A stretch of DNA of 60,606 nucleotides from an uncultured Candidatus Actinomarina sp. (GTDB taxonomy: Bacteria; Actinomycetota; Acidimicrobiia; Actinomarinales; Actinomarinaceae), in assembly GCA_902593475.1 (NCBI GenBank), contig CACJIM010000007.1, positions 1-60,606 of the forward strand, given 5' to 3'. The notes under the pieces are model-generated. The model had not been told where the DNA came from. It was given only the letters and a program-made list of their open reading frames with translations, and did no database searches. Both the position numbers and the translations under genes were made by a program. Shown here one piece after another: positions 1 to 59,723 of the stretch; positions within the stretch are counted from its first letter, which is position 1, and every line of letters starts with the position of its first letter.

Positions 1-2
1 TA

Positions 3-1037
3 CCAGGTGACATATATGGATTAGCCAATGAAAAATTCCGTAATAGGTTGGGACTTGCTCCTACAAACTCTTCATTCATAGCAATGGTTGCTTGTATGAT
101 TGAGTCTGATGGTGAAGAAAAAGTTTTAGAATGGCTAACAGCAATTAATGGTCTTGGATATGGAGAATATCCAAAAAACTCACCTCAAGTAGCAGCAGCT
201 GCAGCTGGTGAGCTTGATATTGGAATGATCAATCATTACTACACACTGAGAGTATTAGCAGAAGATGCTGGTGCTCCTATTAAAAATGTTTACTTAGACG
301 GTGGATGTGGTGCAATGAGATACGAAGATCCAAGTATTGAAAGTGCATTACTTAATTTTAAAAACAAGGGTATATTTGAGCTCATAGTTATATCTCTTTA
401 TCCTCATAACGCTATGGCAACAACAATAACTACTGAAATGGAAACCAGAATTGTAGCTCACAAAGTCTCTGAAGATTTTAAATTGACTTTTACAAAACCT
501 TTTTTTGACAATGAAATATATATAGATGCTGTAAGTAATTCCATAAAACCTTTTATCGAAAAAGCTTCATTTGACAAAATTATATTTAGTTATCATGGAA
601 TTCCAAAGAGACAGGCAAAAAAAACAGATGAAACGGGAGAACATTGCTTTTCAACTGGTAACTGTTGTGAGGTTGAAGGTGCAGGCTCGAAAGACTGTTA
701 CAGGTCGCATACAAGGATTGCTTCAGACTTAACAGCAAAAAAACTCGGCCTAAATGATGACCAATGGGAAGTCGCATACCAATCTAGAATAGGTCCTGGA
801 TGGCTAACTCCCTTCACTGACAGGAGGCTCGCCGAATTACCAGAGGAAGGTAAAGATAATATAGCTGTGTTATGCCCGTCATTTATATCAGATTGTCTAG
901 AAACTTTAGAAGAAATAGATATTCGTGGAAGAAAAACTTTTTTTGATGCTGGGGGTAAGAATATGACCTACATACCATGTCTAAATGATTCAGAGGATAC
1001 TATTAATCTCTTAGAGAATTTAGTTAAGAGTGCCTGA
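3..1037 (+). CDS. Chimeric ORF: C-terminal part of an iron(III) ABC transporter substrate-binding protein fused in frame to ferrochelatase lacking its N-terminus; open at the window edge
   Basis: Frame stays open upstream of the listed TTG (PGDIYGLANEKFRNRLGLAPTNSSF...), typical of FbpA/IdiA-like SBPs, as is QVAAAAAGELDIGMINHYYTLRVLAEDAGAPIKN. From about residue 87 it becomes HemH: AMRYEDPSIESAL, ISLYPHNAMATT, SYHGIPKR, DCLETLEEI, GGKNMTYIPCLN. Confidence 0.8.
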   Translation, partial: PGDIYGLANEKFRNRLGLAPTNSSFIAMVACMIESDGEEKVLEWLTAINGLGYGEYPKNSPQVAAAAAGELDIGMINHYYTLRVLAEDAGAPIKNVYLDGGCGAMRYEDPSIESALLNFKNKGIFELIVISLYPHNAMATTITTEMETRIVAHKVSEDFKLTFTKPFFDNEIYIDAVSNSIKPFIEKASFDKIIFSYHGIPKRQAKKTDETGEHCFSTGNCCEVEGAGSKDCYRSHTRIASDLTAKKLGLNDDQWEVAYQSRIGPGWLTPFTDRRLAELPEEGKDNIAVLCPSFISDCLETLEEIDIRGRKTFFDAGGKNMTYIPCLNDSEDTINLLENLVKSA

Positions 1038-1316: not shown

Positions 1317-2000
1317 ATGAACAATAATCCAAATATCTTTATGCAAAGTGAAATTGAGAAGTTACCGAATTCTTTCTATTCTCATGCTGAAGCAATTTTC
1401 CATTTATCAGAAGTTGGAATAGACGTAAAGCAAACACGTGTAGCTGACTGGTTAGGTGTCAGTAGAGCTAATGTATCACAAGTTATAGGAAGAATGCAAA
1501 ACAGCGGTCTGATTGAGTTTGGTGATGAATTAAAGCTTACAAAAAAAGGTGACTATCTTGCAAAAATGATAGCTAGAAGACACAGAATTGTTGAACGATT
1601 TCTCTCTGAAATTTTAGATCTACCATGGGATCAGGTCTACGTAGAAACTAAAAAATGGGAAAATGTTTTAAGTTCTATTACCGAAGATGCAATGTTGAAA
1701 ATCCTTGGCAATCCAAAAACTGGATTGTTTGGAAATCCAATTCCATATTCTAATTATTTTGAAGGACCTATGGATAGATTGTGTGATGTTGATACAAACA
1801 AAAAATATTCAATTATAAAAATTTCTGAAGAGTTAAAAAGAGACAGTTCTGTTATTTCTTTTCTTGAAAGAAATAAAATATTACCTGGTAATAAGATATA
1901 CATATCTAATACCAATAAATACTCTATAACTGTCAGTGTGACAAAAGATAACTTTTTTGGTCTTGATCAATTTATAGCAAAAAGAGTATTTGTTAGTTAA
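1317..2000 (+). CDS. DtxR/IdeR/MntR-family metal-dependent transcriptional regulator
   Basis: N-terminal HTH (TRVADWLGVSRANVSQVIGRMQNSGLI) followed by the DtxR-type dimerisation/metal region (RRHRIVERFLSEILDLPWDQVYVETKKWENVLS) and a C-terminal FeoA-like domain. Confidence 0.85.
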   Translation: MNNNPNIFMQSEIEKLPNSFYSHAEAIFHLSEVGIDVKQTRVADWLGVSRANVSQVIGRMQNSGLIEFGDELKLTKKGDYLAKMIARRHRIVERFLSEILDLPWDQVYVETKKWENVLSSITEDAMLKILGNPKTGLFGNPIPYSNYFEGPMDRLCDVDTNKKYSIIKISEELKRDSSVISFLERNKILPGNKIYISNTNKYSITVSVTKDNFFGLDQFIAKRVFVS

Positions 2001-2040: not shown

Positions 2041-2523
2041 ATGGAAGACTTTTTATCAAGAATACCTTACGAATTATTTTCATATATTGGTGGAGGAATC
2101 TTTTTGTTTATTATTTTGTACAGATTTTTCCCAAATTTATTTTTAAAAATTCATAAACCAGTATTTTTCACCATTGGAATCCTTTCGCTCTCATTAGGTT
2201 ATGTTGGTATAGTTGTGCCTGGGTTGCCAACAACAGTTTTTATACTTATTGCTGCATGGGCATTTTCAAAATGTTCTGAAAGATTCACGTTATGGCTCGA
2301 AAGTCACCGTATTTTTGGCCCTATAATTTTAAACTGGCAAACATATAGAGGTTTATCTAGACGAGCCAAAAAACTTGCAATATCTATGATTATCCCGACT
2401 TTCGTTTTAACAATTTATTTTGTATTTTCATTTGTAGGAGACTTAATTTTTGGTTCTTTCGGTATAGCACTGTGTACATGGCTTGCTACGAGGCCTGAAC
2501 CACCATTAGAAAACGGTTCTTAA
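2041..2523 (+). CDS. DUF454 (YbaN-like) inner-membrane protein
   Basis: FFTIGILSLSLGYVGIVVPGLPTTVFILIAAWAFSKCSERFTLWLESHRIFGPIILNW matches the DUF454 signature. Confidence 0.8.
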   Translation: MEDFLSRIPYELFSYIGGGIFLFIILYRFFPNLFLKIHKPVFFTIGILSLSLGYVGIVVPGLPTTVFILIAAWAFSKCSERFTLWLESHRIFGPIILNWQTYRGLSRRAKKLAISMIIPTFVLTIYFVFSFVGDLIFGSFGIALCTWLATRPEPPLENGS

Positions 2524-37214: not shown

Positions 37215-38369
37215 ATGGATATCAATTCTCTCAAGTCTCAATTTTCAAAATATAAAAAAGACTTGTTAGATCTTAATAAATACATGTATGAAAATCCTGA
37301 ATTAGGATATCAAGAGATTAAGTCTGTAAATAAAATTACTAAACTTATCAAAAAGCATACAGCTGATGCAAAATTTAAAAAGTTTACTGATATTCCTACT
37401 GCTTTTACTGCTTCAATCAATAATAAGCCCAGAAAAAAAAATATTGCTATATGTATAGAATATGATGCATTACCGAATGTTGGACATGCTTGTGGACATA
37501 ACCTAATATCATCCATAGGATTAGGTGCATTTTTTATCCTTTCGAATTATATAAACGACCTATATTACGAAATAAAGTTAGTAGGTTGTCCTGCTGAAGA
37601 AATCATTCCATTGACCTATGAAAATGGGGGTGGTGGTGGAAAAATAAAACTTTTAGACCAAGGTGCCTTTGATAACACTGCATATTCTGTAATGATCCAT
37701 CCGGCTACAAGAAATGAAGTTGATCCTTTAATGATTGCAGTAAAACAAATTGATATAGAATATTTTGGTAAAGCTGCACATGCGTCTGGTTCAGCATATG
37801 TTGGAAAAAATGCATTGGATGCTCAAATCCTTGCATACAACAACATCAGTGCTTTAAGGCAGCAGCTACAATCTGTAGAAAAAGTTCATGGAATAATTAC
37901 TCATGGTGGTGAGTCACCCAATATTATTCCAGATTACACAAGATCAAGTTGGATGATTCGTGCTCAAAAAACAAAAGACTTAAATAGATTAGAAAAGAAA
38001 ATTATAAATTGTTTCAAAGGAGCTGCAGAGTCTACAGGTTGTAAGTTAAACATTGTTGAAGGTAATGGGACTTATGAAAATTTAGTTACAGACAAAAAAT
38101 TAAAGTCAATATTTATGGAAAATTCAAAAAAACTTTCTTTAGATATGAAAACCAATGAAAGTTATGATCAAAGTAAAAACGGATCTACAGATTTTGGAAA
38201 TATTTCAAAACAAGTTCCTTCATTACACGCATTTCTTCAAATTGTTGATGATGATGGAAAGATTGTAAACCACCAACCTGAATTTGCTCATGCAACAGTT
38301 ACTAAAAGAGCTACTGATATGATTGAAACTGGTAGTGTTCTTTTAGCTTCTACTATTTTAGATTTGTAA
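37215..38369 (+). CDS. M20-family amidohydrolase/peptidase
   Basis: NPELGYQEIKSV, ICIEYDALPNVGHACGHNL, GCPAEE. Start near MDINSLKSQ rather than the listed 37128. Confidence 0.87.
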   Translation: MDINSLKSQFSKYKKDLLDLNKYMYENPELGYQEIKSVNKITKLIKKHTADAKFKKFTDIPTAFTASINNKPRKKNIAICIEYDALPNVGHACGHNLISSIGLGAFFILSNYINDLYYEIKLVGCPAEEIIPLTYENGGGGGKIKLLDQGAFDNTAYSVMIHPATRNEVDPLMIAVKQIDIEYFGKAAHASGSAYVGKNALDAQILAYNNISALRQQLQSVEKVHGIITHGGESPNIIPDYTRSSWMIRAQKTKDLNRLEKKIINCFKGAAESTGCKLNIVEGNGTYENLVTDKKLKSIFMENSKKLSLDMKTNESYDQSKNGSTDFGNISKQVPSLHAFLQIVDDDGKIVNHQPEFAHATVTKRATDMIETGSVLLASTILDL

Positions 38370-39333
38370 ATCTTGCATCAATAGCATTCTTTACAAGTTG
38401 ACTGTGTAAATTTCCATCTAACTCTAAATAATTTTCAGCTTTTTTAAATTCCTCAGAAATCTTTGTTTTTGCCATTAATCGATTATCTGAATTTAGAGTT
38501 ACCTTAAACCCAGATTTTAACAGCTTTATGGCTGGGTGGTTTTCAATAGTTACTGAACTTGCACCTGATTTTACATTTGAAGAAATACATATTTCTAATG
38601 GAATCTGCTTATCCAAAACATATTGAGCTATTCTGGAATTTGGAATATAAGTGTCGTTTTTGTATTGACAACCATCAATAATTTGCCAACCATGCCCTAT
38701 TCTTTGTGCTTGACAATTAAAAACAGCGTCTTCTATATAGGACAAGTCAGCTGCTTCTCCTGCGTGTATAGTTAAACCTACTTCAGATTCTGAAATTAAA
38801 TTACAAGCTTCTTTGTGAAGTGAGGGAGGAAAATTATACTCTGGACCTGCAAGGTCAAATCCAATAACATTGTTATTAAAATTTTTTATAGCCAATTCTG
38901 CAACTTCAGTTGAGTTTTTATGTTGTCTCATTGCACATAAGATTGTATAAAATTCTCCACCAAAGTCTTTTTGTCCATCTTTAATACCTGTTGACACTGC
39001 ATCAACAACTTCCTGTGAAGATAGTTTTCCTTGTAAATGTTGTAGAGGAGCATATCTCAACTCACCATACACAACCCCATCTTCTACTAAGTCCTCAACT
39101 GCTTCATATGCAACTCTTCGGATTGAATCAGTGTCTTGCATAACAGAAATTGTCATCTCAAATTTTTTGAATACTTGTTTTTTATCAGTTGAAATATTTT
39201 CAAAAAACCAATTTTCTAATTCTTGTTCGTTTGAAGAAGGAACAGTCAAGTTTTTAGTTTTAGCAATATCTATAATGGTTTTTGCTCTTAGCCCTCCATC
39301 AAGATGTTCGTGTAAAGCTGAAAATTCTTTTAT
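38353..39333 (-). CDS. add: Adenosine deaminase (proposed AUA start; listed ORF begins at TTG 39249)
   Basis: In-frame upstream IKEFSALHEHLDGGLRAKTIIDIAKTKN carries the HxH metal motif; downstream LTIHAGEAA, QRIGHGW, LEICISSNVKSG, VTLNSDNRL. Confidence 0.85.
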   Translation of the reverse strand: MKEFSALHEHLDGGLRAKTIIDIAKTKNLTVPSSNEQELENWFFENISTDKKQVFKKFEMTISVMQDTDSIRRVAYEAVEDLVEDGVVYGELRYAPLQHLQGKLSSQEVVDAVSTGIKDGQKDFGGEFYTILCAMRQHKNSTEVAELAIKNFNNNVIGFDLAGPEYNFPPSLHKEACNLISESEVGLTIHAGEAADLSYIEDAVFNCQAQRIGHGWQIIDGCQYKNDTYIPNSRIAQYVLDKQIPLEICISSNVKSGASSVTIENHPAIKLLKSGFKVTLNSDNRLMAKTKISEEFKKAENYLELDGNLHSQLVKNAIDARFTNLK

Positions 39334-40649
39334 GAGAAATCTCCATTATCTATTTTCTTATCAAATCCTGTTTTAGTAAATAATTTATTAAATGCCTCTA
39401 ATCCTTCCTCAAAAACTTTTTGTTCATCGATTAGTTGAAATTTTGAATCCTTTAATATGCATTCTCCGTCTATAAATACATCCTTTATTTCATTAGATGA
39501 TGCGCACATTACAATATTATTTACTACATCATGCAGTGGTTGCATTCTAGGAGAATTAATTGAAATTGTTATAAAATCTGCTTTTTGATTTTTTGATAAA
39601 TTTCCTGAAAAGTTACCACCAGAGATCCTTTTTATGTTTTCCTCAGAAGCTTTTCTAAATATTTCTTTTGGTTTAATGAAATCTTTTTTGGCTACGGAAT
39701 TATTTAAGACTAATGCAGTCCTCATTTCTTCTAACATATCATAATCATCGTTACCCCCAGAACAATCTGTACCTATTCCCCAGTCAACATTCAATTCTGA
39801 CAAAAAATTAGTATTCATTGGCTTTCCAGCTATTCCGTGAGTTGTTGGGCAAAATATTGGAAATGCTTTTGACTCTGCAAGTAACTCCAAATCTCCATCC
39901 TCTACAACATTGCAATGAGCAGCTATTACTTTTTCATTCAATATTCCGAGGTTAAATGCGTGTTTAATTGGGGAAGTATCATAGTTAGATTTAATATAGT
40001 CCATCTCTTTTTGAGTTTGAGCTAGGTGTATATGTGTTAATAAATTATTTTCTAGCGCATAATTGCTTAATTCTTTAAGTTCTTTTGGGCTTACTGTTGA
40101 AGTTTCATGTGGTGCAACAATTGGATGAACTGTACTATGATTTTTCCAATTATTATTAAAGGACTTTGCTAGTTTAATTTGTTCTTTACCAGTCCATGGA
40201 CCATACTCAGTCATAATTGTGTGCCCAATAAACCCTCTTATTCCAATATATTCACACGCTTTTGCAACTGAATCAGCAAAAAAATAATGATCATTAATTG
40301 ATGTTGTGCCAGATGATATAGCATCCATCATGCCTAATAAAGAAAGCTTGTAAACTAAATCTTCATCTAGAGCTGGTTCAATCCCCCACATCACATCATA
40401 CAGTGCACTTGCGTTTCCATAACCAAGTCCTTTTACAGAATTTAAAGCAACATGTGAGTGTGCATTTGTAAAACCTGGTGAGATTATTACATCTCCTAAT
40501 TCGTTAATTTTACTTAAGTCTTTAGTTATTGTTTCTATCGGTACTATATTCTCTATGTATTTTCCATTAACAATTAAAACAGAATTTTTATGAACAGTTT
40601 TGTAATCTTCAACTATGTATCGAGCTGAGAAATATTCTTTACTTATCAA
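39330..40649 (-). CDS. TRZ/ATZ-family amidohydrolase (cytosine/guanine/SAH-type deaminase)
   Basis: VISPGFTNAHSHVALNSVKG, HIHLAQTQKE, AAHCNVV, GIGTDCSGGND. Confidence 0.85.
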   Translation of the reverse strand: MISKEYFSARYIVEDYKTVHKNSVLIVNGKYIENIVPIETITKDLSKINELGDVIISPGFTNAHSHVALNSVKGLGYGNASALYDVMWGIEPALDEDLVYKLSLLGMMDAISSGTTSINDHYFFADSVAKACEYIGIRGFIGHTIMTEYGPWTGKEQIKLAKSFNNNWKNHSTVHPIVAPHETSTVSPKELKELSNYALENNLLTHIHLAQTQKEMDYIKSNYDTSPIKHAFNLGILNEKVIAAHCNVVEDGDLELLAESKAFPIFCPTTHGIAGKPMNTNFLSELNVDWGIGTDCSGGNDDYDMLEEMRTALVLNNSVAKKDFIKPKEIFRKASEENIKRISGGNFSGNLSKNQKADFITISINSPRMQPLHDVVNNIVMCASSNEIKDVFIDGECILKDSKFQLIDEQKVFEEGLEAFNKLFTKTGFDKKIDNGDFS

Positions 40650-41576
40650 TTATTGTTCAGGAATAGGGACAGGTCTTACCCTTATTCTTTGTCTTATGCC
40701 AATAAGTATTAACACAACAACTGTTAGAGCATAAGGGACCATTAAGATTAGTCTTGAGTCTAATTCATATACACCTTGAAGTCTTATACCGATTGCGTCT
40801 CCTAAACCAAAAAATAAACTAGCACCAAATGTACCAAGTGGAGTGTTGTTACCAAATGAAGAAGCAACAAGTCCTATATAGCCTTTTCCAGCTGACATTC
40901 CCTCTGTAAAAAGAGTCATGTTTTCTAGTGAAAGAAAAGTACCACCTATACCTGCTAAAACTCCTGAAAAAATAACAGTTAACCATTTCATTCTTAAAGT
41001 ATTAATTCCAGCATCTTCTGCAGCCTCAGGATTTTCACCAGTAGCTCTAATAGCTGTTCCCAATCTTGTCTTGTAATAAACCAAATATAAAACAATAGCT
41101 AGAAAAAAAACAAGGTAAATTGAAGGTGTGTATCCTGAAAGAATTTTTTCAAAACGAGTATCTACAAGAAATTCGAAATTTATTGGATCGATGCCTTGAA
41201 TGGAAGGGTCAGAAAAAAAACCTCTACGTTTGAATAATGTTTCTAATAAATATCTTGTACCAGCAATAGAAAAAATGTTGATCGCTAAACCTACTAAAAC
41301 TTCATCTGCACCTAAATTGAAACTTAAAACACCAAATAAAATTGCCGTAAGCACTCCAGCAGATACTCCCCAAATAAAACCAGTTAGGGCACTTCCTGAA
41401 TAGTAGCTTGCTGCGATTCCAACAAATGCTGCGTTGAGCATTTTGCCCTCTAAACCAATATTCAAAACACCAGAAGCGGAGCACATTGCTGCACCAAACC
41501 CAATTAAGGCAATTGGAGTTGCACTACGAATTAAGCTCCTAAAAAGAGAGATATCAAATATTTCAAGCCATTCCAT
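40650..41576 (-). CDS. Nucleoside-type ABC transporter permease
   Basis: SGVLNIGLEGKMLNAAFVGIAASYYSG, GTAIRATGENPEAAEDAGI; BMP-type gene cluster. Confidence 0.88.
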   Translation of the reverse strand: MEWLEIFDISLFRSLIRSATPIALIGFGAAMCSASGVLNIGLEGKMLNAAFVGIAASYYSGSALTGFIWGVSAGVLTAILFGVLSFNLGADEVLVGLAINIFSIAGTRYLLETLFKRRGFFSDPSIQGIDPINFEFLVDTRFEKILSGYTPSIYLVFFLAIVLYLVYYKTRLGTAIRATGENPEAAEDAGINTLRMKWLTVIFSGVLAGIGGTFLSLENMTLFTEGMSAGKGYIGLVASSFGNNTPLGTFGASLFFGLGDAIGIRLQGVYELDSRLILMVPYALTVVVLILIGIRQRIRVRPVPIPEQ

Positions 41577-42659
41577 TTATTTAATCTTTCTAGTAAAAAA
41601 AGCGTCTAGTTTTCTAACGAATTTAAATCTTTCCAGTGAAGATACAAGCTTTTGTGCACTAACAAAAAATATTAAAATTGAGAGTAGAATTACAACTATT
41701 TCTCGAGAAACTTCAGTTTTATAATCTACAAATAAACCTCCGTTTCTTAGAGCACTCCAAAATAAAGAAGCAATTAAACCGCCGATTGGTTCTAATTTAC
41801 CCACAATTGCAATAAGAATTCCATCAAACCCTTGGTTAAAAAGAAGTTCTTGGTAAAAATATCTAGCATTTCCAAGAATTTCGATACCACCAGCAAGCCC
41901 CCCAAGTCCTCCAGAAATTAACATTCCTGTTATTGCAGATCTATCTGAAGGTATTCCAAGGTATGAACTATATCTAGATGGATAAAACCCGACAAGACCA
42001 TCGCCGCCAGATCTTAATTCGTAACCAAATGTTGTTTTTTTAAGAATAAAATATGTTAAAAATGCAATAATTACCGCTATGAAAAAACCAGAGTTAAATT
42101 GTGAATTTGGAAAATATTGTTTTAATTCAGCAGTTTCTAATATTCTTGGAGTCGCAGGTGCTATAGGGTCTGCTCTAAATGGTCCATTAGCCATATAGGA
42201 AACAAACAATACAGCAACGAAATTAAGAATAATTGTTGAAATTATCTCACTTACACCCGCATAAACTTTTAATAAAGCTGGTAGCAACATCCACAAACTT
42301 CCAGTAATAATGGCAATAGCTATACATAAAGATACATGGGGAATATGGCCCAAGGATGTAAATTTATATCCTGCCCATGCAGCATATAAACCCCCAATAT
42401 ACATTGATCCATTTATTCCAATATTAAACATACCAACTCTGAAAGAAACCACAGTTGCAATTGACGTTAGAATATATGGAGTCGCAATATTTAAAGTATT
42501 CAAAATATTTCTCTGTCCAACAACAGCGCCTTCAAAAAATAATTTCCCAATTTCTCTAGGAACAAAACCAGTAACAGTTAATAAAACCCAAGCAATACCA
42601 ATAGTTATTATTGTTCCTGCAAAAAGAATGAGTACATCTTTAAATGAAAATTTTTCCAT
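41577..42659 (-). CDS. Nucleoside-type ABC transporter permease
   Basis: FRVGMFNIGINGSMYIGGLYAAW; GVSEIISTIILNFVAVLF. Confidence 0.88.
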   Translation of the reverse strand: MEKFSFKDVLILFAGTIITIGIAWVLLTVTGFVPREIGKLFFEGAVVGQRNILNTLNIATPYILTSIATVVSFRVGMFNIGINGSMYIGGLYAAWAGYKFTSLGHIPHVSLCIAIAIITGSLWMLLPALLKVYAGVSEIISTIILNFVAVLFVSYMANGPFRADPIAPATPRILETAELKQYFPNSQFNSGFFIAVIIAFLTYFILKKTTFGYELRSGGDGLVGFYPSRYSSYLGIPSDRSAITGMLISGGLGGLAGGIEILGNARYFYQELLFNQGFDGILIAIVGKLEPIGGLIASLFWSALRNGGLFVDYKTEVSREIVVILLSILIFFVSAQKLVSSLERFKFVRKLDAFFTRKIK

Positions 42660-42661
42660 TA

Positions 42662-44188
42662 TTAATCCTTTATTCCAGCCATATATAGACCCATTTGTTG
42701 CTGATCTACATCTTTAGGGTTTACCCATTCAACTATTTCACCCTCATAAATAACTGCTACTCTATCTGCGACTGACATAACCTCATCTAATTCTGCGGAA
42801 ACTAATAAAACTGCTTTTTCAGAATCCCTAATCTCAACAAGTTGTTTATGAATTGCTTCTATATTTCCTATATCAACTCCTCGAGTTGGTTGAGATGCTA
42901 TTGTCAAAAGTGGATCTTCTGAGAGCTCCCTAGCAATAACAACTTTTTGTTGGTTACCGCCAGATAAAGATCCTGTTCTTACAAAAACTCCAGGTGTTCT
43001 AATATCAAATTTTTCCCTTAAATTATTACTATGGTCAACAACGTTTTTCATACTAATAATTCCACCCTTAGAAAGAGGGCTTCTGAAATATGAGGTTCCG
43101 ACTAAGTTTTCCCAAATATCTAATTTCAAATTGAGTCCAGTATTAGCCCTGTCCTCTGGAACATGTGCCAAGCCAGCTCTTCGTCTTTTTCGTGGAGAAA
43201 TAGATTCTATGTTTTTACCATCAAAAATAACCTCACCTTTACTTGTTGGTCTTAAGCCTGACAAGGCTTCAACTAGTTCTGTTTGACCATTTCCATCAAC
43301 ACCTGCGATTCCAACAATTTCACCTTTATGAACATCTAAAGATAAGTTTTTGACAGCAAGCAATCCTCGTGCATCATGTACCCATAAATTTTTCACTTCT
43401 AAGACTTTTTCAGTAGGTTTTGCTTCTTCTTTTTCAACTTGCATAAATACTTCACGTCCTACCATTAATTTTGCTAATTCTTCAGGAGAAGTGTCTTTTG
43501 TATTGGAGACTCCTTGAACTTTTCCATCTCTCATGACTGTTACTCTGTCAGAAATTTCCATAACTTCTCTTAACTTATGGGTAATAAAAATTACTGTTTT
43601 CCCTTCATCAACAAGACTTCTGATAACTTCAAATAATTCATCGGTCTCTTGGGGTGTAAGCACTGCGGTTGGTTCATCTAAAATTAAAATGTTTGCGTTT
43701 CTATATAAAGTTTTTAGAATTTCAGTTCTTTGTTGAATACCTACAGAAGCGTCTATCATTCTAAGTTTTGGATCAACATCTAATCCATACTTTTTTGCAA
43801 TATTTGAAACTTCAGAATTTAATTCATCCCAATCAATAAAACCTCTTGAATTTCTTGGCTCTTGGCCTAATCCAATGTTTTCTGCAGCAGTAAAAGATGG
43901 CACTAAATGAAACTCTTGATGAACCATGCCTATGCCAAGCTCAATCGCTTTATCTACTTTGTTTATTTCAACCGGTTTATCATTTATAAATATTTCGCCT
44001 GAATCAGGTTGTTCAATTCCATATAAAATTTTTACGAGAGTTGATTTTCCAGCTCCATTTTCTCCAACTAGAGCGTGTATCTCACCTTTTAAGACCTTGA
44101 AATCTACAGAATCATTAGCAGTAACTCCCGGATAGGATTTTGTTATATTTTTTACTTCTACTGCTGTTTCTATATTGTTTTGAGTCAT
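42662..44188 (-). CDS. Nucleoside/sugar-type ABC transporter ATP-binding protein (two NBDs)
   Basis: LVGENGAGKSTLVKILYG; DEPTAVLTPQE; second NBD GVDGNGQTELVEALSG, SGGNQQKVVIARELSEDP. Confidence 0.92.
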   Translation of the reverse strand: MTQNNIETAVEVKNITKSYPGVTANDSVDFKVLKGEIHALVGENGAGKSTLVKILYGIEQPDSGEIFINDKPVEINKVDKAIELGIGMVHQEFHLVPSFTAAENIGLGQEPRNSRGFIDWDELNSEVSNIAKKYGLDVDPKLRMIDASVGIQQRTEILKTLYRNANILILDEPTAVLTPQETDELFEVIRSLVDEGKTVIFITHKLREVMEISDRVTVMRDGKVQGVSNTKDTSPEELAKLMVGREVFMQVEKEEAKPTEKVLEVKNLWVHDARGLLAVKNLSLDVHKGEIVGIAGVDGNGQTELVEALSGLRPTSKGEVIFDGKNIESISPRKRRRAGLAHVPEDRANTGLNLKLDIWENLVGTSYFRSPLSKGGIISMKNVVDHSNNLREKFDIRTPGVFVRTGSLSGGNQQKVVIARELSEDPLLTIASQPTRGVDIGNIEAIHKQLVEIRDSEKAVLLVSAELDEVMSVADRVAVIYEGEIVEWVNPKDVDQQQMGLYMAGIKD

Positions 44189-44203
44189 GATATATATCTT
44201 ATA

Positions 44204-44235
44204 TTTTCTAGCCCGAAAGAAATCGGGCTAGAAAA
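44204..44235. other. 13-bp-stem inverted repeat between the BMP SBP gene and the ATPase gene
   Basis: TTTTCTAGCCCGA-AAGAAA-TCGGGCTAGAAAA, perfect arms; no T tract after the stem on the coding strand. Confidence 0.9.
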
Positions 44236-44249
44236 TAAATTTTTATATA

Positions 44250-45374
44250 TTAGCCACCAGCTGTAACGTCGGTAACTACTATTTCACCAGATACAATCTT
44301 AGCTCTAACTTCTGCAACTTCTTCAACAAGCGCATCAATCTCAGCTGCCATGTCTGGATTTTGTTCTTTGAAGAGATTTGTTCCATCAACAAGCCATGTT
44401 GATCCAACAAAATTTTCTGCTAATCCATAGCTATCAATTGAGCTAAATACTTGACCATTAGCTGCAATTGTGTCTTGGATAACTTTATAAACTGATTTAT
44501 CAACACCCTTCATCATTGATGTAATCATTGTTCCTGGTTGAATATAGTCTTGATTTGAATCAACACCTACTGCATAATTACCAGTTTCTGCTGCTGCTTC
44601 GTATGCTCCATCACCTGTAGCACCACCAGCGGCGAAAATTACGTCAGCACCTTGTTCAAAGCAACTGAGCCCAATTTCTTTACCTTTTGCAGGGTCTCCC
44701 CAGCTTCCAGCATAACCTGCGCAGAATTCAACATCAGGATTTGCGTATCTAGCACCTTCTTCCCAACCAGTTTGGAATTTTCTAATGATTGGAACGTCCA
44801 TTCCTCCCATGAAAGCTACCTTTCCAGTTTTAGAAAGTTTTGCAGCAATATAACCTACCTCAAAAGAACCTTCATGTTCTTTGAATATAATATTTGCCAC
44901 ATTAGGCAATAGATTTCCGTCATCATCAGTAACAACCATATCTACAATTGCAAACTGAATATCTGGGTTAGCAAGAGCTGCTTCTTTAATTCTCTCTGCT
45001 TCAGAAAAGCTAATTCCAATAATTAATTCTTTTCCGTCAGCAATGAGATTTTGATAAGCTGCTGCTCTTTCAGATTCTTCAGCTTCAATAAAGTCGCCGT
45101 CGATTCCTAATTCAGCAAGTGCTTGATCGAAGCCTCTTTTCGCTGAGTCCATAAATGAACGGTCACCTAAAGCTCCAAGTACTATACCTACTTTTAACGC
45201 TTCTGCTTCTGGCTCTTCTGCAGGTGCTGCAGTAGTAGCTGGAGAATCAAGAGTCTCTTGTTCTGCTGCTGGTTCTGCAACCTCTTCAGTAGTTGTTTCT
45301 GAGCTGCCACCACAGGCAGACAAAATCAACATTAATGACAGAAGTACAAAAACGGATTTCTTTTTAGTAATCAT
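44250..45374 (-). CDS. BMP-family (nucleoside) ABC transporter substrate-binding lipoprotein
   Basis: LLSLMLILSACGGSS lipobox; VGIVLGALGDRSFMDSAKRGFDQALAELGI; SD AAGGAGT. Confidence 0.9.
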   Translation of the reverse strand: MITKKKSVFVLLSLMLILSACGGSSETTTEEVAEPAAEQETLDSPATTAAPAEEPEAEALKVGIVLGALGDRSFMDSAKRGFDQALAELGIDGDFIEAEESERAAAYQNLIADGKELIIGISFSEAERIKEAALANPDIQFAIVDMVVTDDDGNLLPNVANIIFKEHEGSFEVGYIAAKLSKTGKVAFMGGMDVPIIRKFQTGWEEGARYANPDVEFCAGYAGSWGDPAKGKEIGLSCFEQGADVIFAAGGATGDGAYEAAAETGNYAVGVDSNQDYIQPGTMITSMMKGVDKSVYKVIQDTIAANGQVFSSIDSYGLAENFVGSTWLVDGTNLFKEQNPDMAAEIDALVEEVAEVRAKIVSGEIVVTDVTAGG

Positions 45375-45465
45375 TAATTTACTCCTTCATTATTTAAATA
45401 ATGATTTAATAATTCTATCTGAAATTATTAAAAGTGTCTTATTGATTGAAGGTAAATATTTACTT

Positions 45466-46398
45466 TTATGGGAGAAGTTTTGAGGTATTTGTTATTATAT
45501 TAAACAACTTTTCATCATCTACTTTGTTCATCCAGTGGACGTTTTTATTTCTTCCAGAAATATGATTAGTGTCAACCACTGTTTGGCCTAGTGTTAATTC
45601 TGAATCAACCTCAACTTCGACATTGGTAACTTCTCCAGTAGTTAAAGAGCAATCGACTAAATAAGCAGTTACAAATGCATCATGTACTGGAGTTCCATCT
45701 GGAAACTTTTGTTTAACTATTTCTAAATCAGCTAAGGACCCCATTAAACCAACAAGATATTCTCCAGTAGTGGTACCTGTTTCATGAATTGTATTCAGTC
45801 TTTCACTTGTAGAAATTGCTTGATGTGTAACGTCTAATCCCATCATTACCAATTTTGCACCTGAACTTAAAACAACTTTTGCTGCTTCCGGGTCAACTAA
45901 AATATTAAACTCTGCCACAGGTGTATGGTTTCCAAAACCTGCTCCTCCTCCCATGAAAATAATTTGATCTATGTTTTTAGCTAACTCAGGGTTAGTATTT
46001 AAAACTTTTCCGATATTTGTCATTGGGCCAAGAACACAAATGGTAATTTTCTCATCACTGTTTTTTAGTAATTCAGTTATGTAATCTACTGCTCCAATAG
46101 ATTCTTCGCTTTTTGAAGGCTCAGGAAACCCAACTCCATTTAATCCATCTGTTCCGTGAACCCATTCTGCTGTAAGTAAATCTCTATTTAAAGGCTTCGA
46201 TTCCCCTTTATAAACTGGGATACTGTTTCTATTGGCATGTTCGAGAATTCTAAGAGCATTTCTTGTTCCAACATCTACGCCAACATTTCCTCCAACTGTA
46301 GTTATTGCAAGTAATTCCTCATCCGTAAAATGTGCTAAAGCAATGAGAATTGCTACGGCGTCATCAGTACCTGGGTCGGTATCGATAATGAATTTCAT
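45466..46398 (-). CDS. Inosine/uridine-preferring nucleoside hydrolase
   Basis: MKFIIDTDPGTDDAVAILIAL metal motif; ITICVLGPMTNI; AEFNILVDPEAA. Confidence 0.93.
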   Translation of the reverse strand: MKFIIDTDPGTDDAVAILIALAHFTDEELLAITTVGGNVGVDVGTRNALRILEHANRNSIPVYKGESKPLNRDLLTAEWVHGTDGLNGVGFPEPSKSEESIGAVDYITELLKNSDEKITICVLGPMTNIGKVLNTNPELAKNIDQIIFMGGGAGFGNHTPVAEFNILVDPEAAKVVLSSGAKLVMMGLDVTHQAISTSERLNTIHETGTTTGEYLVGLMGSLADLEIVKQKFPDGTPVHDAFVTAYLVDCSLTTGEVTNVEVEVDSELTLGQTVVDTNHISGRNKNVHWMNKVDDEKLFNIITNTSKLLP

Positions 46399-46416
46399 TT
46401 AATTATTGTAGTATTT

Positions 46417-48897
46417 TTATGATTCAGATTCTACAAAATCTACAGGTGGTTCATCTGGAGCTTCAACTGATTCAAACTCTAGAGTATTTTCATCTTTATT
46501 TAATGAAATTATTATTGTTGATCCAGCTTTATATTTACCTTGTAAAAGCTCTTCTGAAAGAGGGTCTTCAAGTAATCTCTGTATAGACCTTCTTAAAGGT
46601 CTCGCTCCAAATTCTTTATCATAACCTTCGGTTGCTAAAAATTCTTTAGCTTCATCAGAAAGTACAATTTCTAAGTCAGAGTTTTTAAGTTGATTGTGTA
46701 CTCTATCAAGCATTAAATCAACAATTTCTTTAACTTCATCAATTAATAGCTCATGGAAAACAATTGTTTCATCTATTCTATTTAAAAATTCAGGCCTAAA
46801 ATATCTTTTTAATTCTTCACTAACTTTTGATTTCATTTTTTCATAATTATCGATTTCGCTTAAATTACTGAAGCCGATATTTTTGGCAATATCTTTGGTT
46901 CCTAAATTTGAAGTCATGATAATTATTGTGTTCTTAAAATCAACTGTTCTACCTTGTGCGTCGGTAAGTCTTCCATCTTCTAGAATTTGGAGAAGTGTAT
47001 TAAATACATCAGGATGAGCTTTTTCTACTTCATCAAGAAGAACTATACTGAAAGGTTTTCTTCTTACAGCTTCAGTGAGTTGGCCTCCTTCATCATAACC
47101 AACATAACCCGGAGGTGAGCCAATTAATCTACTTACTGTGTGCTTTTCCATATATTCAGACATGTCTATCTGAATTAATGAATCTTCATCGCCAAAAAGA
47201 AACTCTGCTAAAGCTTTTGCGGTCTCAGTTTTACCAACACCAGATGGTCCTAAAAATATAAATGAACCAGATGGTCTTTTTGGATCCTTTAATCCAGACC
47301 TTGTTCTTCTTATAGCTTTTGAAACTGCCGCAATTGCTTCATTTTGACCAATAATTCTCTTATGTAGCTCGATTTCCATTTCTAACAATCTAGCTGTCTC
47401 TTCTTGGGTTAATCTATGAACTGGTATGCCTGTCCATTGAGCTAGAACTTCTGCAATTTCTTCTTCATCAATTACCATTTCAATTTCTGAAGCAGATGCT
47501 GAGTCTATAGTGTTTACTTCATCAAGTAATAGTTTTTCCTGATCTCTTATTTGAGCTGCTTTCTCAAACAATTGAGATTGAACAGCATCAATTTTTTGCT
47601 CTCTTAAATTCTTAAGTTTGTCAGCTATTTCTTGTTTATCTTGATCAAGAGGTTTCTTGTAAACTCTCATGCGACTACCTGCTTCATCAATCAAGTCAAT
47701 AGCTTTGTCAGGTAAGAATCTATCAGATATATATCTGTCTGCCATATTGACAGCAGAAGCGATAGCTTGATCTGTAAACCTGACTCCGTGGTGGACCTCA
47801 TATCTATCTTTCAATCCATCTAATATTTCTATAGCATCTGAGAGTTTTGGCTCATCAACTTGTACGGACTGGAATCTTCTTTCAAGTGCAGCATCCTTTT
47901 CAAAATGTTTTCTAAATTCTTCTAGTGTTGTGGCACCTATTGTCTGAAGTTCGCCTCTTGCTAACATTGGCTTTAAAATTGACGCAGCATCAATCGCTCC
48001 TTCAGCAGCTCCGGCACCAACAAGTGTGTGTATTTCATCTATAAATAAAACAATGTCACCTCTTGTTTTTATTTCCTTTAAGACTTTCTTTAGACGTTCT
48101 TCGAAGTCACCCCTGTATCTTGATCCTGCTACTAAAGCAGATAAGTCAAGTGTATAAATTTGTTTACCTTCAAGAGTTACTGGGACGTCACCTGAAACGA
48201 TTTTTTGAGCTAAACCTTCAACAATCGCAGTTTTACCAACTCCTGGCTCACCAATTAATACTGGGTTGTTCTTTGTTCTTCTGGATAGTATTTGCATTAC
48301 TCTTTCAATCTCTGTTGTTCTGCCAATAACAGGGTCGAGCTTTCCTTCTTTTGCCATTCTTGTAAGATTTCGTCCGAATTGATCTAAGATAGCTGAACCT
48401 GTTCCTGAACCAGGTCTTTCCCTACCTCCTGTAGATGCAGCTTGTTGCTTTTTGCTTTCACCTGCAGATGAAATTAATTTGATCACTGTTTGTCTAACTT
48501 GAGATAGTTCAGCACCTAATTTTTTTAAAACTTGAGCAGCAACGCCTTCTCCTTCACGAATCAATCCGAGAAGTATATGTTCTGTTCCTATGTAATTATG
48601 TCCTAGTTGTAAGGCTTCTCGTAGTGAAAGTTCTAAAACTTTTTTTGCTCTAGGAGTAAAAGGAATATGCCCACTCGGTGATTGTTGGCCTTCTCCAATA
48701 ATTTCAACAACTTCTGACCTAACGCTATCAATATTGATATTTAATTCTTCCAAAGCTTTTGCAGCATGGCCTTCGCCTTCTTGAATTAAACCGAGAAGTA
48801 TATGTTCTGTTCCTATGTAATTATGATTAAGTCTTCTAGCTTCTTCCTGCGCTAGAACTACGACCCTTCTGGCTCTATCAGTAAATCTTTCAAACAT
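46417..48897 (-). CDS. clpC: ATP-dependent Clp protease ATP-binding subunit ClpC
   Basis: Two Clp_N repeats ([14 protein letters not shown]), [19 protein letters not shown]-like central region, [16 protein letters not shown]. Confidence 0.96.
48566..48600. repeat. 35-bp direct repeat copy 1 inside clpC
   Basis: CCGAGAAGTATATGTTCTGTTCCTATGTAATTATG. Confidence 0.95.
48791..48825. repeat. 35-bp direct repeat copy 2 inside clpC
   Basis: Identical 35 bp, offset 225 bp (75 codons). Confidence 0.95.
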
Positions 48898-48976
48898 ATA
48901 GTTATATTACCAAGGGTCTGTTTATACACTTAAATGAAAATTACAACTATTTATACATTTACTTTATTCTTTAGTT

Positions 48977-49960
48977 ATGGAAAGCAATGAAATCAAAAAA
49001 ATTATTCCTTTCGATGATATTTGGGATAACTTAAATGTATTAGAAGAAAGACTATTAGAAATTTCTAGCTCTTCAAATGATTACCTTACATCAATTTCTC
49101 AATATCTTATAAATGCCGGAGGAAAAAGATTTCGACCAATCGTTACCTCGCTTGCTGGAAAGTTTGGGAATGAAATTGAAAATATTGGCAAAATTATAGA
49201 CGCTGGTGTTTGTGTAGAACTAATTCACATTGGGAGTTTATATCATGACGATGTAATGGACAATGCTACAACAAGAAGAGGTGTTGAAAGTTCAAACTCA
49301 AAATGGAACTCTACCCTTTCAATACTTGCAGGAGATTATTTACTTGCGAGATCTTCTGAGCTTGCAGCTGAAAGTTTAGGATTAGAATCTGTCAAACTGT
49401 TGGCATCAACTTATGCAGAATTAGTTGAAGGTCAAACTAAAGAGTTAAATTTAGCTTTTGACCTTGATCAAAATATTGATGATTACTTAACAGTTATTGA
49501 AGGAAAAACTGCGAGCCTTATTAGAACAAGTGCAAGGCTTGGTTCTCTTGCTAGTTCAGCTGATAGTGAGATTGTTGATGCCTTGAGCAATTGGGGTTGG
49601 AACTGTGGAATAATTTTTCAAATATCTGATGATATATTAGATTTAACTTCTGACTCGCAAACGTTGGGAAAGCCTGCAGGTAATGATATTTTAGAAGGAA
49701 CTTACACATTACCGGTCTTAATTGCATTGAATAAAGACAAAGGTAAGTATCAGGAACTCTTGACTGAAATAAAAGAAGAGAAAATTGATGTTAAAAATGT
49801 GCTTGATGAATTTACTACAAAGGAAATAATTGACGACTCAAAAGAAATAATCAACGGCTACTTAAATGAGAGCGTAGAGGCGATATTTACTCTCAAAGAT
49901 CATGAACTATTTCCAGTTCTAGAAAACATTAACAATTATCTTATTAATCGAACAAATTAA
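48977..49960 (+). CDS. Polyprenyl (heptaprenyl-type) diphosphate synthase
   Basis: GGKRFRPIV, LIHIGSLYHDDVMDNATTRRG (first Asp-rich motif), QISDDILDLTSD (second). Confidence 0.93.
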   Translation: MESNEIKKIIPFDDIWDNLNVLEERLLEISSSSNDYLTSISQYLINAGGKRFRPIVTSLAGKFGNEIENIGKIIDAGVCVELIHIGSLYHDDVMDNATTRRGVESSNSKWNSTLSILAGDYLLARSSELAAESLGLESVKLLASTYAELVEGQTKELNLAFDLDQNIDDYLTVIEGKTASLIRTSARLGSLASSADSEIVDALSNWGWNCGIIFQISDDILDLTSDSQTLGKPAGNDILEGTYTLPVLIALNKDKGKYQELLTEIKEEKIDVKNVLDEFTTKEIIDDSKEIINGYLNESVEAIFTLKDHELFPVLENINNYLINRTN

Positions 49961-51438
49961 TTTTCAGGTTTTAAATGTGGAAAGGCAATAACCTCTCTAA
50001 TTGATTCATTGTTTGTAAGCATCATTACAAATCTATCTACTCCAAAACCAAGTCCACCAGTTGGAGGTAGCCCATACTCCAAAGCTTCAATGTAATCGCT
50101 GTCTTCTACATGTGCCTCTTCATCTCCCTCAGCTTTTTTTTGTGCTTGTTCCTTTAACCTTGCCTCTTGATCAACTGGATCAATGAGTTCGGAAAAACCA
50201 TTGGCTAATTCACTACCAAAAGCAAATAATTCAAACCTTTCAGTCACTCCGTTCTTTTCTTTACTTTCCCTAGCAAATGGTGAGGCTTCTTTGGGGTAAT
50301 CAGTTACAAATGTAGGATTTACAATATTGTCTTCAATGTATTTTTCAAACAAATCGTAAACTAACATTCCTGTAGTTTTAGATTCATTCTCAATCTTATG
50401 TTTTGTTAAAAACTCTTCTTTGATTTTTTTTAAATCTGAATTGTGTTTGATTTCAACATCAAAATATTCACTTACCAAATCAAACATACTTATTCTTTTC
50501 CAAGGAAAACTAAAATCTGCTTCTTTTTCAGTAAATTCTATCTTTAAATCATGATTTAATTGACTTAATATGTACTCGCACATATTTTCAACCATATCCA
50601 TTACACCATTTACATCTGTGTAAGCCTCGTAACTTTCCATCATCGTGAACTCAGGTGAGTGTGTTTGGTCAATGCCTTCATTTCTAAAAACTTTTCCAAC
50701 TTCAAAAACTTTTTCATAACCACCAATAATCAATCTTTTTAAATATAGCTCAGGAGCAATTCGAAGAAACATGTCAATACTCATTGCATTATGGTGTGTC
50801 ACAAAAGGTTTGGCAATGGCACCTCCTGCTTTTGGCTGGAGTGTGGGGGTCTCAACTTCAATAAAACCATCACTAACCATAAACTCTCTTATTAATTTGA
50901 GAACTTTAAATCTCGTATCTATAGTTTTCTTTGCATCATCATTTACGATTAAATCAAGATACCTTTGTCTAAATCTAGTTTCTTTATCTTTCAATCCATG
51001 CCACTTTTCAGGAAGTGTTCTTAAAGATTTGCTCAAAACTATTAAATTGGAAATTTTTAATGAAAGCTCTCCCTTTTTTGTTTTCATTATGCTTCCAGAA
51101 GTACCTACTATGTCTCCTACATCCATTAATTCAATGTGTTCTTCTAATTTCTCATCTAAATCGTCTTTAGAAGCAAGTAATTGTATTTTGCCAGTTGAGT
51201 CTTTTACATCTATAAATGTTAATTTTCCAAAAGACCTAATACTTAGCACTCGACCTCTCACAGCAACACTAATATCTGTTTGTTCTCCATTGTCTAGGCT
51301 TTGATGGTTGGCATGAATATCGCTTATAAAACTTGCATTTTTATAGTATGTTGGAAAAGACTCTGTTCCTTTTAATTTTTCAACCTTCTCACGTCTAAGG
51401 TCATATATTTCTTTTTCAGATTTTGATAATTCGGTCAC
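49957..51438 (-). CDS. lysS: Lysyl-tRNA synthetase, class II
   Basis: VRGRVLSIRSFGKLTFIDVKD, FRQRYLDLIVN, GLGFGVDRFVMMLT; GTG start. Confidence 0.95.
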   Translation of the reverse strand: MTELSKSEKEIYDLRREKVEKLKGTESFPTYYKNASFISDIHANHQSLDNGEQTDISVAVRGRVLSIRSFGKLTFIDVKDSTGKIQLLASKDDLDEKLEEHIELMDVGDIVGTSGSIMKTKKGELSLKISNLIVLSKSLRTLPEKWHGLKDKETRFRQRYLDLIVNDDAKKTIDTRFKVLKLIREFMVSDGFIEVETPTLQPKAGGAIAKPFVTHHNAMSIDMFLRIAPELYLKRLIIGGYEKVFEVGKVFRNEGIDQTHSPEFTMMESYEAYTDVNGVMDMVENMCEYILSQLNHDLKIEFTEKEADFSFPWKRISMFDLVSEYFDVEIKHNSDLKKIKEEFLTKHKIENESKTTGMLVYDLFEKYIEDNIVNPTFVTDYPKEASPFARESKEKNGVTERFELFAFGSELANGFSELIDPVDQEARLKEQAQKKAEGDEEAHVEDSDYIEALEYGLPPTGGLGFGVDRFVMMLTNNESIREVIAFPHLKPEN

Positions 51439-51447
51439 ATTTATATC

Positions 51448-52215
51448 CTAATTATTTAAGTTAAATATTTCTTCTAACCCAACTAATGTTAAATTTTCTT
51501 CATACTGTGCATTTAAATTAAGTGCAGGCTGAATAATTGGACTTAAACCTCCAGTTAGAATAATTTTTGGTTTTGTTCCCAATTCTTGTAAAAGTTTCTC
51601 AATCATAGAATCTATCATAGATGCGTGCCCAAAGATTAACCCGCTCTGAATAGCTTCATAAGTATTTTTACCTACAACTTTTTTTGGAAGGTCTAATTCA
51701 ACAGATTTCAAAGAAGCGGTCTTCGATGTTAAAGCGTCCAAGCTAATTTTTATACCCGGTGCAATAGCTCCGCCTAGATACTCTTTTTTATTGTTTACAA
51801 TATCAAAAGTAGTTGCTGTCCCTAAATCAACAATTACAACATCTGACTCGGCAATTTTATAACCAGCAACTGAATTTGCTATTCTGTCAGGTCCTAATTC
51901 TTTTGGATTATCAATATTTACTTTTAAACCTGTTTTAATACCAGGCCCCACAACGATAGGTGGGAAATCTAAATATTTCTCAATTGCTTGAACCATATTG
52001 TTAGTTACTTGAGGAACAACTGAGCAGACTATAGAACCTGCTAATTCATTTCTTTTGTCATCTATTAGGTTAAAAGTGGAGTTAAAAAGTGCCAACAATT
52101 CATCTGGAGTGTTTGCATCTCTAGTAGTAAACCTGTAAGAATCCCAGCCATCCTTGTTTCCTATTCCTACTGTTGTTTCAGTATTTCCAATATCAATTGC
52201 TATTATTTTTTTCAT
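51448..52215 (-). CDS. coaX: Type III pantothenate kinase
   Basis: IAIDIGNTETTVGI, GPDRIANSVAGY, VIVDLGTATTFDIV, LGGAIAPGI. Confidence 0.94.
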   Translation of the reverse strand: MKKIIAIDIGNTETTVGIGNKDGWDSYRFTTRDANTPDELLALFNSTFNLIDDKRNELAGSIVCSVVPQVTNNMVQAIEKYLDFPPIVVGPGIKTGLKVNIDNPKELGPDRIANSVAGYKIAESDVVIVDLGTATTFDIVNNKKEYLGGAIAPGIKISLDALTSKTASLKSVELDLPKKVVGKNTYEAIQSGLIFGHASMIDSMIEKLLQELGTKPKIILTGGLSPIIQPALNLNAQYEENLTLVGLEEIFNLNN

Positions 52216-53030
52216 ATTTCTATATCAATGTTGTCTATCAGCCTTACATTTTCAACATAAGCTGCAGTTAATAACTTTAATTTCTTTGAGTATTTATTTG
52301 GATAATTAAAATTTTCTTCATCCACTATTTCAAGATAGTCCAAATCTATTTCATTTTGATTAAGTGAATTAATACCTAGTTCAACAGATTCTTCAAAACT
52401 TTTACCTAAATTTATTTCTTTAGACACTTTTTGTAAAGATTTAAAAATATTTGCTGCAATTAATTTAGCATCATGTGATAAATGCTTATTTCGGCTACTC
52501 AAAGCAAGGCCATTTATATCTCGAAATATTTCGCCTTCTATTATTTCAATATTTAAATCAAGCCGACTAACCATGTCCTTAATTAAAAATAATTGTTGCG
52601 CATCTTTTTTCCCGAACACAGCATGGCTAGGCTTTATTAAATCAAACAGTCTATTTACAACAGTTAAAACTCCCTCGAAATGGCCAGGCCTTGAAGCTCC
52701 CTCAAGAATAGATCCAACTTTACTAGGAACAATAGAAGGGACTCCTTCACTAGGGTAAATGTAGCTATCCTGAGGGAGAAAAATAAAATCAACACCCCTA
52801 CTTTTCAAAAATTGAATATCTTGTTCATGCTCGATAGGATAATTTTTGAAATCGTCATCATTATTGAATTGTCTTCTATTAAGAAATATGGATACCAAAG
52901 TTTTTAAATTTGTTTCTTTTCCAATATCTACAAGTGACAGGTGGCCTTCATGTATTGCTCCCATTGTGGGAATAAAACATATGTTTTCAGACAGGATGTC
53001 ATCGTTAATTGTATTTATCACTTTTGTCAT
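52212..53030 (-). CDS. panC: Pantothenate synthetase
   Basis: FIPTMGAIHEGHLSLV, FGKKDAQQLFLIKDMV, GLALSSRNKHLS. Confidence 0.94.
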   Translation of the reverse strand: MTKVINTINDDILSENICFIPTMGAIHEGHLSLVDIGKETNLKTLVSIFLNRRQFNNDDDFKNYPIEHEQDIQFLKSRGVDFIFLPQDSYIYPSEGVPSIVPSKVGSILEGASRPGHFEGVLTVVNRLFDLIKPSHAVFGKKDAQQLFLIKDMVSRLDLNIEIIEGEIFRDINGLALSSRNKHLSHDAKLIAANIFKSLQKVSKEINLGKSFEESVELGINSLNQNEIDLDYLEIVDEENFNYPNKYSKKLKLLTAAYVENVRLIDNIDIEI

Positions 53031-53057
53031 TATCGTGCCCTAAAATGGTGCCCGTAC

Positions 53058-53531
53058 TTAAGTTTTAATTTTACCAATATTAGTTATTTTTTGATCAAAA
53101 ATTTTAAAACTAGATTTATCTAAAGGCTTATTTAAAACCTCATATAAAGGTTCGACAACAAAAAGTCTATTTTGCCAATCATAATGAGGGATAATCAAAT
53201 CTTCTTCCTCAATTTCTTCACCTTTAAAAAATATAATATCTATATCTATCAACCTTGGTCCGTATCTAAAATTTTTCTTTCGCCCCATTTGAGTTTCTAT
53301 TTCCTTAATTTTTATTAGTAAATTTCTAGCTGTTCCTTGGTATTCAATTTCAATAACAATGTTGAAAAAATCATCTTGTTCTTTGTAAAGTAGTGGTTCT
53401 GTTTTGTAGACTGATGAGATTTTAATAATCTTGGCAAAATTAGAAATTAGCCTTACTCCATCAATTAAATTACTTTCTTTATCACCAATATTTGAGCCCA
53501 ATGAGAGAAATATACTATTTGAATTCTTCAC
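53058..53531 (-). CDS. folK: HPPK, 6-hydroxymethyl-7,8-dihydropterin pyrophosphokinase
   Basis: FLSLGSNIGDKESNL, YGPRLIDIDIIFF, IIPHYDWQNRLFVVEPL. Confidence 0.93.
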   Translation of the reverse strand: MKNSNSIFLSLGSNIGDKESNLIDGVRLISNFAKIIKISSVYKTEPLLYKEQDDFFNIVIEIEYQGTARNLLIKIKEIETQMGRKKNFRYGPRLIDIDIIFFKGEEIEEEDLIIPHYDWQNRLFVVEPLYEVLNKPLDKSSFKIFDQKITNIGKIKT

Positions 53532-53883
53532 GATAAGAAACCGAAATGCCCTCTGTTCTATCTTTTAAAATTGTATCTGGTTTATGAACTGTGACCTTGA
53601 TTTCTCGAAACATAGATTCATTTTTTGCGTATTTCAATACAATTTGTTCAGAAATTTGTTTTGCCAGAGTTTCAATTAAATCATAGCTTTCTGTGTTTAC
53701 GAATTTTATAACTAAATTAACAATTTCCTCATAATTAAGTGTTTTGTTAATATCGTCTACAGAAAAATCAGAAATATTGATATGAACATCTACCAAAAAT
53801 TCTTGATCGTTTTGTTTTTCGTGATCATAAATTCCATGTTTTCCAAAGCACTTTATTTTAGAAATATTTATGTCGAATGACAT
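53515..53883 (-). CDS. folB: Dihydroneopterin aldolase
   Basis: IKCFGKHGIYDHEKQNDQEFLVDVHINI; YDLIETLAKQI. Confidence 0.9.
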   Translation of the reverse strand: MSFDINISKIKCFGKHGIYDHEKQNDQEFLVDVHINISDFSVDDINKTLNYEEIVNLVIKFVNTESYDLIETLAKQISEQIVLKYAKNESMFREIKVTVHKPDTILKDRTEGISVSYREEFK

Positions 53884-53886
53884 TAT

Positions 53887-54357
53887 TTATATAGTGGGAA
53901 TAAGAGCTATAGCTTTTGGTGAAAGTGGTTTTTCTAATATTTTTTCAAGTATGGTTCTTGCCAAAATAGGATCGTCCAAAAGTTTGGAGTAAATTAAATA
54001 ACCAGCAAGAATTCCCGGAACTTGTTCATCTAATAATTCTCGATGTATTAGAAGCTTTCGATCCTTGTCTGATAATGCTTCTTTGATTGCATCAAAAATA
54101 ACATTTAGAGACTCTTTTGGAATATCATCACTTAACGGATAGTGATAAGTTCTAAAACCTACTTCTTGATAGTTTTTAAGATTAAAGTCTGAATCAAGTA
54201 GAGAGAAGATAGCATTAATGCCCTGTCCTTTTAGCCACTGAATTTCTTCTTCCCTCCTTATTTTACGAGGAGTAAGGCCACCGCCACCAATACATTCGGA
54301 AACAGCTAGTTTTCCTTCAATAATCCAATGAAAATCATTGGGTTTTAAACCAGCCAT
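53887..54357 (-). CDS. Dual-specificity-phosphatase-like protein with degenerate active site
   Basis: FHWIIEGKLAVSECIGGGG...EEIQWLKGQGINAIFSLLDSD...YHYPLSDDIP layout; signature loop reads LIHRELLDEQVPG instead of HCxxxxxR. Confidence 0.6.
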   Translation of the reverse strand: MAGLKPNDFHWIIEGKLAVSECIGGGGLTPRKIRREEEIQWLKGQGINAIFSLLDSDFNLKNYQEVGFRTYHYPLSDDIPKESLNVIFDAIKEALSDKDRKLLIHRELLDEQVPGILAGYLIYSKLLDDPILARTILEKILEKPLSPKAIALIPTI

Positions 54358-54394
54358 TGTAACCTCCGTAAATTATATTAGCTTAAATGTAAAA

Positions 54395-55138: not shown

Positions 55139-55140
55139 TT

Positions 55141-55701
55141 TTAAGAAAAGTTTAAAAGTGCTTCGTTTCTTAAAGAAAAGTCTAATTCATATACACCCGT
55201 TGAGTATGTAGTTATGACCTCTTCTGATGAATTTTGTGAATTCAATAAATCAGAGCAAAGATGTTTTGCAGACATTTTAACAAACACTCCATCGGCATCT
55301 AAAGTTTCGTGTATGAACGAGGCAATTTTTTCAGTTAACTTTTCCTGTAATGTTAAGTCGTTTGAAAAATGCCCTACAAGATCACTAAATTTTGAAATTC
55401 CCAATATCTTTTTCTTTGGGAAAACAGCAATACTTGCTGAGCCATGAAAAGGCATCATATGATGTTCACATAAGCTAATGTATGAAATTCCATTTATATA
55501 AATGGGTTGATTGTGTGTAACTTCTTTTAGTGATTCAAAAATAAGTGTTTCATCACCTTTATTAGATAATTTTTTTTGAACTTGGTCTAAAAACTTAATT
55601 GATAAATTTTTTATTTCTTCATCACTCTTATCAGTTATTTCTTTCAATAAGAAAAATAAAGATTCCTGTGCCTGGATTAGGTTAGTTTGAACTTCGCTCA
55701 T
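55141..55701 (-). CDS. folE: GTP cyclohydrolase I
   Basis: ISYISLCEHHMMPFHGSASIAVFPKKKILGISKF; MSAKHLCSDL. Confidence 0.93.
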   Translation of the reverse strand: MSEVQTNLIQAQESLFFLLKEITDKSDEEIKNLSIKFLDQVQKKLSNKGDETLIFESLKEVTHNQPIYINGISYISLCEHHMMPFHGSASIAVFPKKKILGISKFSDLVGHFSNDLTLQEKLTEKIASFIHETLDADGVFVKMSAKHLCSDLLNSQNSSEEVITTYSTGVYELDFSLRNEALLNFS

Positions 55702-57566: not shown

Positions 57567-57610
57567 CTTATTTAATTTAATACTCTTGGGTTTAAAAGCA
57601 ATACTGACAT

Positions 57611-59375: not shown

Positions 59376-59390
59376 TACAAGAAGACTAAT

Positions 59391-59684: not shown

Positions 59685-59723
59685 ATTATGAGACTAGTAA
59701 AAGTTTAAAAAAATATAAAGATT

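Follow-up and report, generated by a model that had tools for sequence, protein, structure and literature searches.

The left end of this contig raises the question of whether a ferric-iron transport protein and a ferrochelatase have been fused in an organism that groups with Candidatus Actinomarina, or whether two separate genes have been joined artificially. The window, that is, the whole stretch of 60,606 nucleotides that was analysed, opens with a single reading frame (nt 3-1037, + strand), recognised as an ORF and from its translation, that runs off the left edge. This edge is base 1 of the contig (G000:C7), i.e., the contig end itself, in a genome of 836,891 bases in 30 contigs that is 60.5% complete. 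An earlier note, made from the letters alone, had described one frame, open leftwards, passing from a substrate-binding protein (SBP) into hemH, and this description is borne out by the translation, by profile matches and by 93% identity to an SBP gene. As a feature of the organism, the SBP-ferrochelatase gene fusion is almost certainly an artefact.

Residues 1-103 of the frame match a ferric-iron ABC SBP of the FbpA type, and a match to ferrochelatase covers residues 104-343 (Pfam PF00762, 8e-61, profile positions 94-315 of 317), with a TIGR00109 match over its cut-off from profile position 98. In Pfam and NCBIfam searches of the frame, ferrochelatase alone was detected, from residue 104. In the closest relative (G025), the SBP gene that shares 93% nucleotide identity with nt 1-317 encodes a whole protein (L003:2634-3722, open at the locus end), whose matches to solved proteins of the FbpA/HitA type reach 2.6e-63. 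Membership of the first ~100 residues in the ferrochelatase family was rejected on the domain search and the relative's gene, an SBP match being found instead. Both parts are incomplete. The first spans about residues 182-284 only of an FbpA-type protein that would comprise a signal peptide, two lobes and a C-terminal part, and the second, starting at profile position 94, falls short of the full-length ferrochelatase fold with its N-terminal half. By the relative's numbering 97 residues are missing from hemH, more than the roughly 85 first estimated, although the SYHGIP and DCLETLEE motifs and the Cys-rich insert are all present as described; the insert is also carried by the intact hemH genes of relatives. 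The features of this end of the contig are as follows.

1..310, + strand: displaced, inverted segment, an internal part of an FbpA-type SBP gene (~residues 182-284) that starts at the contig end; 93% nucleotide identity to G025:C1:170834-171150 (+), in an orientation opposite to the rest of the contig
311..317, + strand: chimeric junction with 7-bp microhomology, TGCAATG, the same 7-mer being found as inverted copies in both intact G025 genes
312..1037, + strand: 3' portion of the ferrochelatase gene hemH, starting at residue 98 and set in its usual genomic surroundings; PF00762 and TIGR00109, collinear with G025:C1
645..701 (approximate), + strand: internal four-cysteine insert, C-x5-CC-x9-C, an insertion-type [2Fe-2S] ferrochelatase motif as defined in PMC8529089, seen in the translation and in the intact relative
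1317..2000, + strand: DtxR-type iron-dependent repressor gene (Pfam Fe_dep_repr_C, 7e-19), which adjoins hemH or the SBP gene across the genus and agrees with the dtxR-type gene reported to follow the frame
2041..2523, + strand: gene for a 160-aa membrane protein (memb160), a conserved neighbour of dtxR by tblastn synteny

The geometry of the junction is revealed by alignment to G025. Apart from one 8.2-kb island, nt 311-60606 are collinear with G025:C1:169883-117794, nt 311-37234 corresponding to C1:169883-132979 and nt 45411-60606 to C1:132989-117794, both on the minus strand. Nt 1-317 alone map to the plus strand (C1:170834-171150) and are both inverted and displaced. The two matches overlap by the 7 bases TGCAATG, which in G025 lie in the SBP gene at C1:171144-171150 (+) and in hemH at 169877-169883 (-), inverted and with 1,261 bp between them. 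The overlap upholds the chimeric switch that had been claimed at nt 297-318 and narrows its position to nt 311-317. Searches of the rest of the assembly found neither the reciprocal junction nor the intervening DNA, the 5' part of hemH, the rest of the SBP gene or the ~8 kb that lies beyond the SBP part in G025; a second intact hemH, which the earlier note had proposed to look for, was likewise not found in this genome.

The gene order in related genomes, also recommended for comparison, gives a consistent picture of two separate and intact genes, mostly divergent. Among 42 Actinomarina genomes, hemH was detected in 22 and gave no match in 20. The other 21 hemH genes of the genus are full length, the one in the window being the only one to start at profile position 94. 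According to a tblastn map, 19 of these 21 loci keep hemH and the SBP gene apart and in divergent orientation, memb160-dtxR-hemH occupying one strand and the SBP gene the other; in the remaining two (L060 and L063) they are separate, codirectional and both intact. The order in L060, which has a scaffold gap, and in the gapless L063 is dtxR-hemH-SBP; hemH is flipped there and precedes the SBP gene, a reorientation that has occurred naturally at this locus. In most of the remaining loci dtxR and the SBP gene diverge directly from each other, hemH being absent from the interval. The gene is missing from the usual dtxR/SBP interval in L066 and L069-L076, and the spacer was confirmed to be gap-free in L069, L070 and L072. 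The SBP gene is present at every genus locus mapped. The locus has already been described as the iron cluster of Actinomarinales, located between two nuo operons (PMC7771536); a Fe3+ ABC transporter, a ferrochelatase and an iron-dependent repressor are found at the same place, but the genes are separate there, whereas two of them are joined at a contig tip here.

Very probably, the fusion arose in vitro as a chimera and survived as a dead-end contig tip; its most likely source is the amplification of a single cell by phi29 polymerase (multiple displacement amplification, MDA). In general terms, the artefactual join that had been listed among the possible origins is supported by the inversion, the displacement, the microhomology, the position at a contig end and the separate genes of relatives. 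In the organism itself, the two genes would be separate and divergent, with ~120 bp between them. A 3' end that was being extended in hemH, toward the N-terminal end, and became displaced would re-anneal via TGCAATG on the displaced strand of the SBP gene and be extended back, creating an inverted join with the loss of ~1.26 kb in between. The 5' part of hemH and the intergenic region would be lost at the join, and the 5' part of the SBP gene would fall past the contig end. The assembler would then follow the chimera for ~310 nt and stop, this length being probably about what short-read fragments support before assembly ends.

This scheme agrees well with what is known of MDA. Of 475 MDA chimeras studied by Lasken and Stockwell (2007; PMC1855051), 406 (85%) were inversions with an intervening deletion, and in most of these the two sites lay within 10 kb of each other. 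Among such close inversions, 93.5% had 2 bp or more of complementarity, with a maximum of 21. The junction in the window shares all of these traits: its second segment is inverted, the sites lie <10 kb apart, the intervening DNA is lost, and the 7 nt of complementarity are within the 2-21 nt range. It differs in that those chimeras were seen in raw reads, whereas this one stands in an assembled contig tip. We infer that the join was produced by MDA. That this record originated as a single amplified genome (SAG) is inferred from its named relatives, most of which bear the AG-/AH- names of GORG-type single-cell records; the genus is known mostly from SAGs, and the 182 Actinomarinales genomes of PMC7771536 are, too, largely SAGs. 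On the other hand, no inverted tip was seen at the ~15 other contig ends that can be placed on G025, nor were inverted self-copies or foldbacks seen at other contig ends of the assembly, which thus gives no indication that such chimeras are frequent in it. This comparison covered contig ends and stretches of one relative. It also counts against an amplification chimera that hemH is, to judge from the genomes compared, dispensable in the genus, and hence that its disruption need not be lethal.

This dispensability favours instead the next most probable origin, a genuine and recent inversion in this lineage between the inverted TGCAATG copies that would have broken hemH and the SBP gene and fused the two. 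We regard such an event as unlikely, even though 20 of the 42 genomes have no hemH match and the orientation of hemH differs naturally in L060 and L063. The natural flips keep both genes intact, the SBP gene is retained at all genus loci mapped, and the contig stops ~310 nt beyond the join with no reciprocal junction in the assembly. Moreover, neither half has decayed: relative to G025, the 103 codons of the SBP part differ by 20 synonymous and 1 non-synonymous changes and those of the hemH part by 41 synonymous and 12 non-synonymous changes, the pattern of normal purifying selection that is also seen in neighbouring genes. The join, if real, would therefore be very recent, and an SBP-ferrochelatase fusion would have arisen where the ferrochelatase is an orphan, dispensable gene.

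A computational misjoin, in which the assembler bridged hemH to the SBP gene at the contig end although no DNA molecule was chimeric, is quite unlikely. In its favour are the position of the join at the contig tip and the short distance between the two loci, but the sequence that they share in the relative is 7 bp, far below usual assembly k-mers, and for this reason a chimeric read is the simpler source. Very unlikely indeed is a functional fusion that would both bind iron and carry out its insertion into porphyrin, a possibility also raised before and left without support. The frame is open across the join, but this is weak evidence: of the 136 same-sense 7-mer pairs common to hemH and the SBP gene, 69 are mutually in frame, and about half of chance matches would thus keep the frame open. 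Such a fusion occurs in no relative, the frame ends with the contig, and the hemH part is without its first 97 residues; in addition, the SBP resembles, in translation, a secreted lipoprotein and has a signal sequence, whereas ferrochelatase acts on the cytoplasmic side. Finally, the deletion first suggested, collapsing an SBP-permease-ATPase-hemH operon, can be practically dismissed. All that speaks for it is the continuous reading frame. In 19 of 21 relatives the two genes lie divergently on opposite strands, so that only an inversion could bring them into the same direction; in the two codirectional cases hemH precedes the SBP gene, an order from which no deletion could yield an SBP-to-hemH join.

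Recognition of the probable amplification chimera prevents the annotation of a false fusion protein, and it illustrates how chimeras at the contig tips of single-cell genomes can be tested for simply, from synteny, orientation and microhomology together. Of greater importance than the chimera is a side observation on hemH itself. Profile searches for hemB (PF00490), hemE (PF01208) and hemQ (PF06778), in which the positive controls gave matches, found none of the three in any of the 42 Actinomarina genomes, and hemH would accordingly be an orphan, as far as tested, in about half of the genus. Actinomarina thus appears to lack haem synthesis, although the COX1 family of haem-copper oxidases (PF00115) matches all 42 genomes, some of them weakly. 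An orphan hemH suggests haem auxotrophy with either porphyrin salvage or removal of iron from haem, and our leading guess for its role is porphyrin salvage. An analogy is offered by Haemophilus influenzae, in which growth on iron and protoporphyrin IX goes through a retained ferrochelatase. Growth of this species on the two compounds is described in PMC2859871. Haem auxotrophy is known in freshwater actinobacteria (acI). A literature search found no published report of Actinomarina as a haem auxotroph, and the word heme is absent from the text of PMC7771536. About half of the genus would then retain a ferrochelatase next to genes for iron transport and iron-dependent repression despite the apparent lack of haem synthesis, and porphyrin salvage, or iron removal from haem, would become directly testable in an abundant marine lineage.

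The ferrochelatase of Actinomarina also carries an internal insert. The C-x5-CC-x9-C arrangement, present in the window and in the intact gene of the relative (L003:1498-2514, - strand), is the one found in insertion-type [2Fe-2S] ferrochelatases. The survey of ferrochelatases in PMC8529089 lists no Actinobacteria among the motif carriers of the insertion type, and the intact Actinomarina hemH would add one. Since no actinobacterial insertion-type enzyme is listed there, it is possible that hemH was acquired horizontally.

Elsewhere in the window, the 8.2-kb island (nt 37235-45410) is absent from G025 at this position, where the flanking matches overlap by ~10 bp. To judge from its translations, it encodes amidohydrolases, including an adenosine-deaminase-like protein, and a BMP-type nucleoside ABC transporter.
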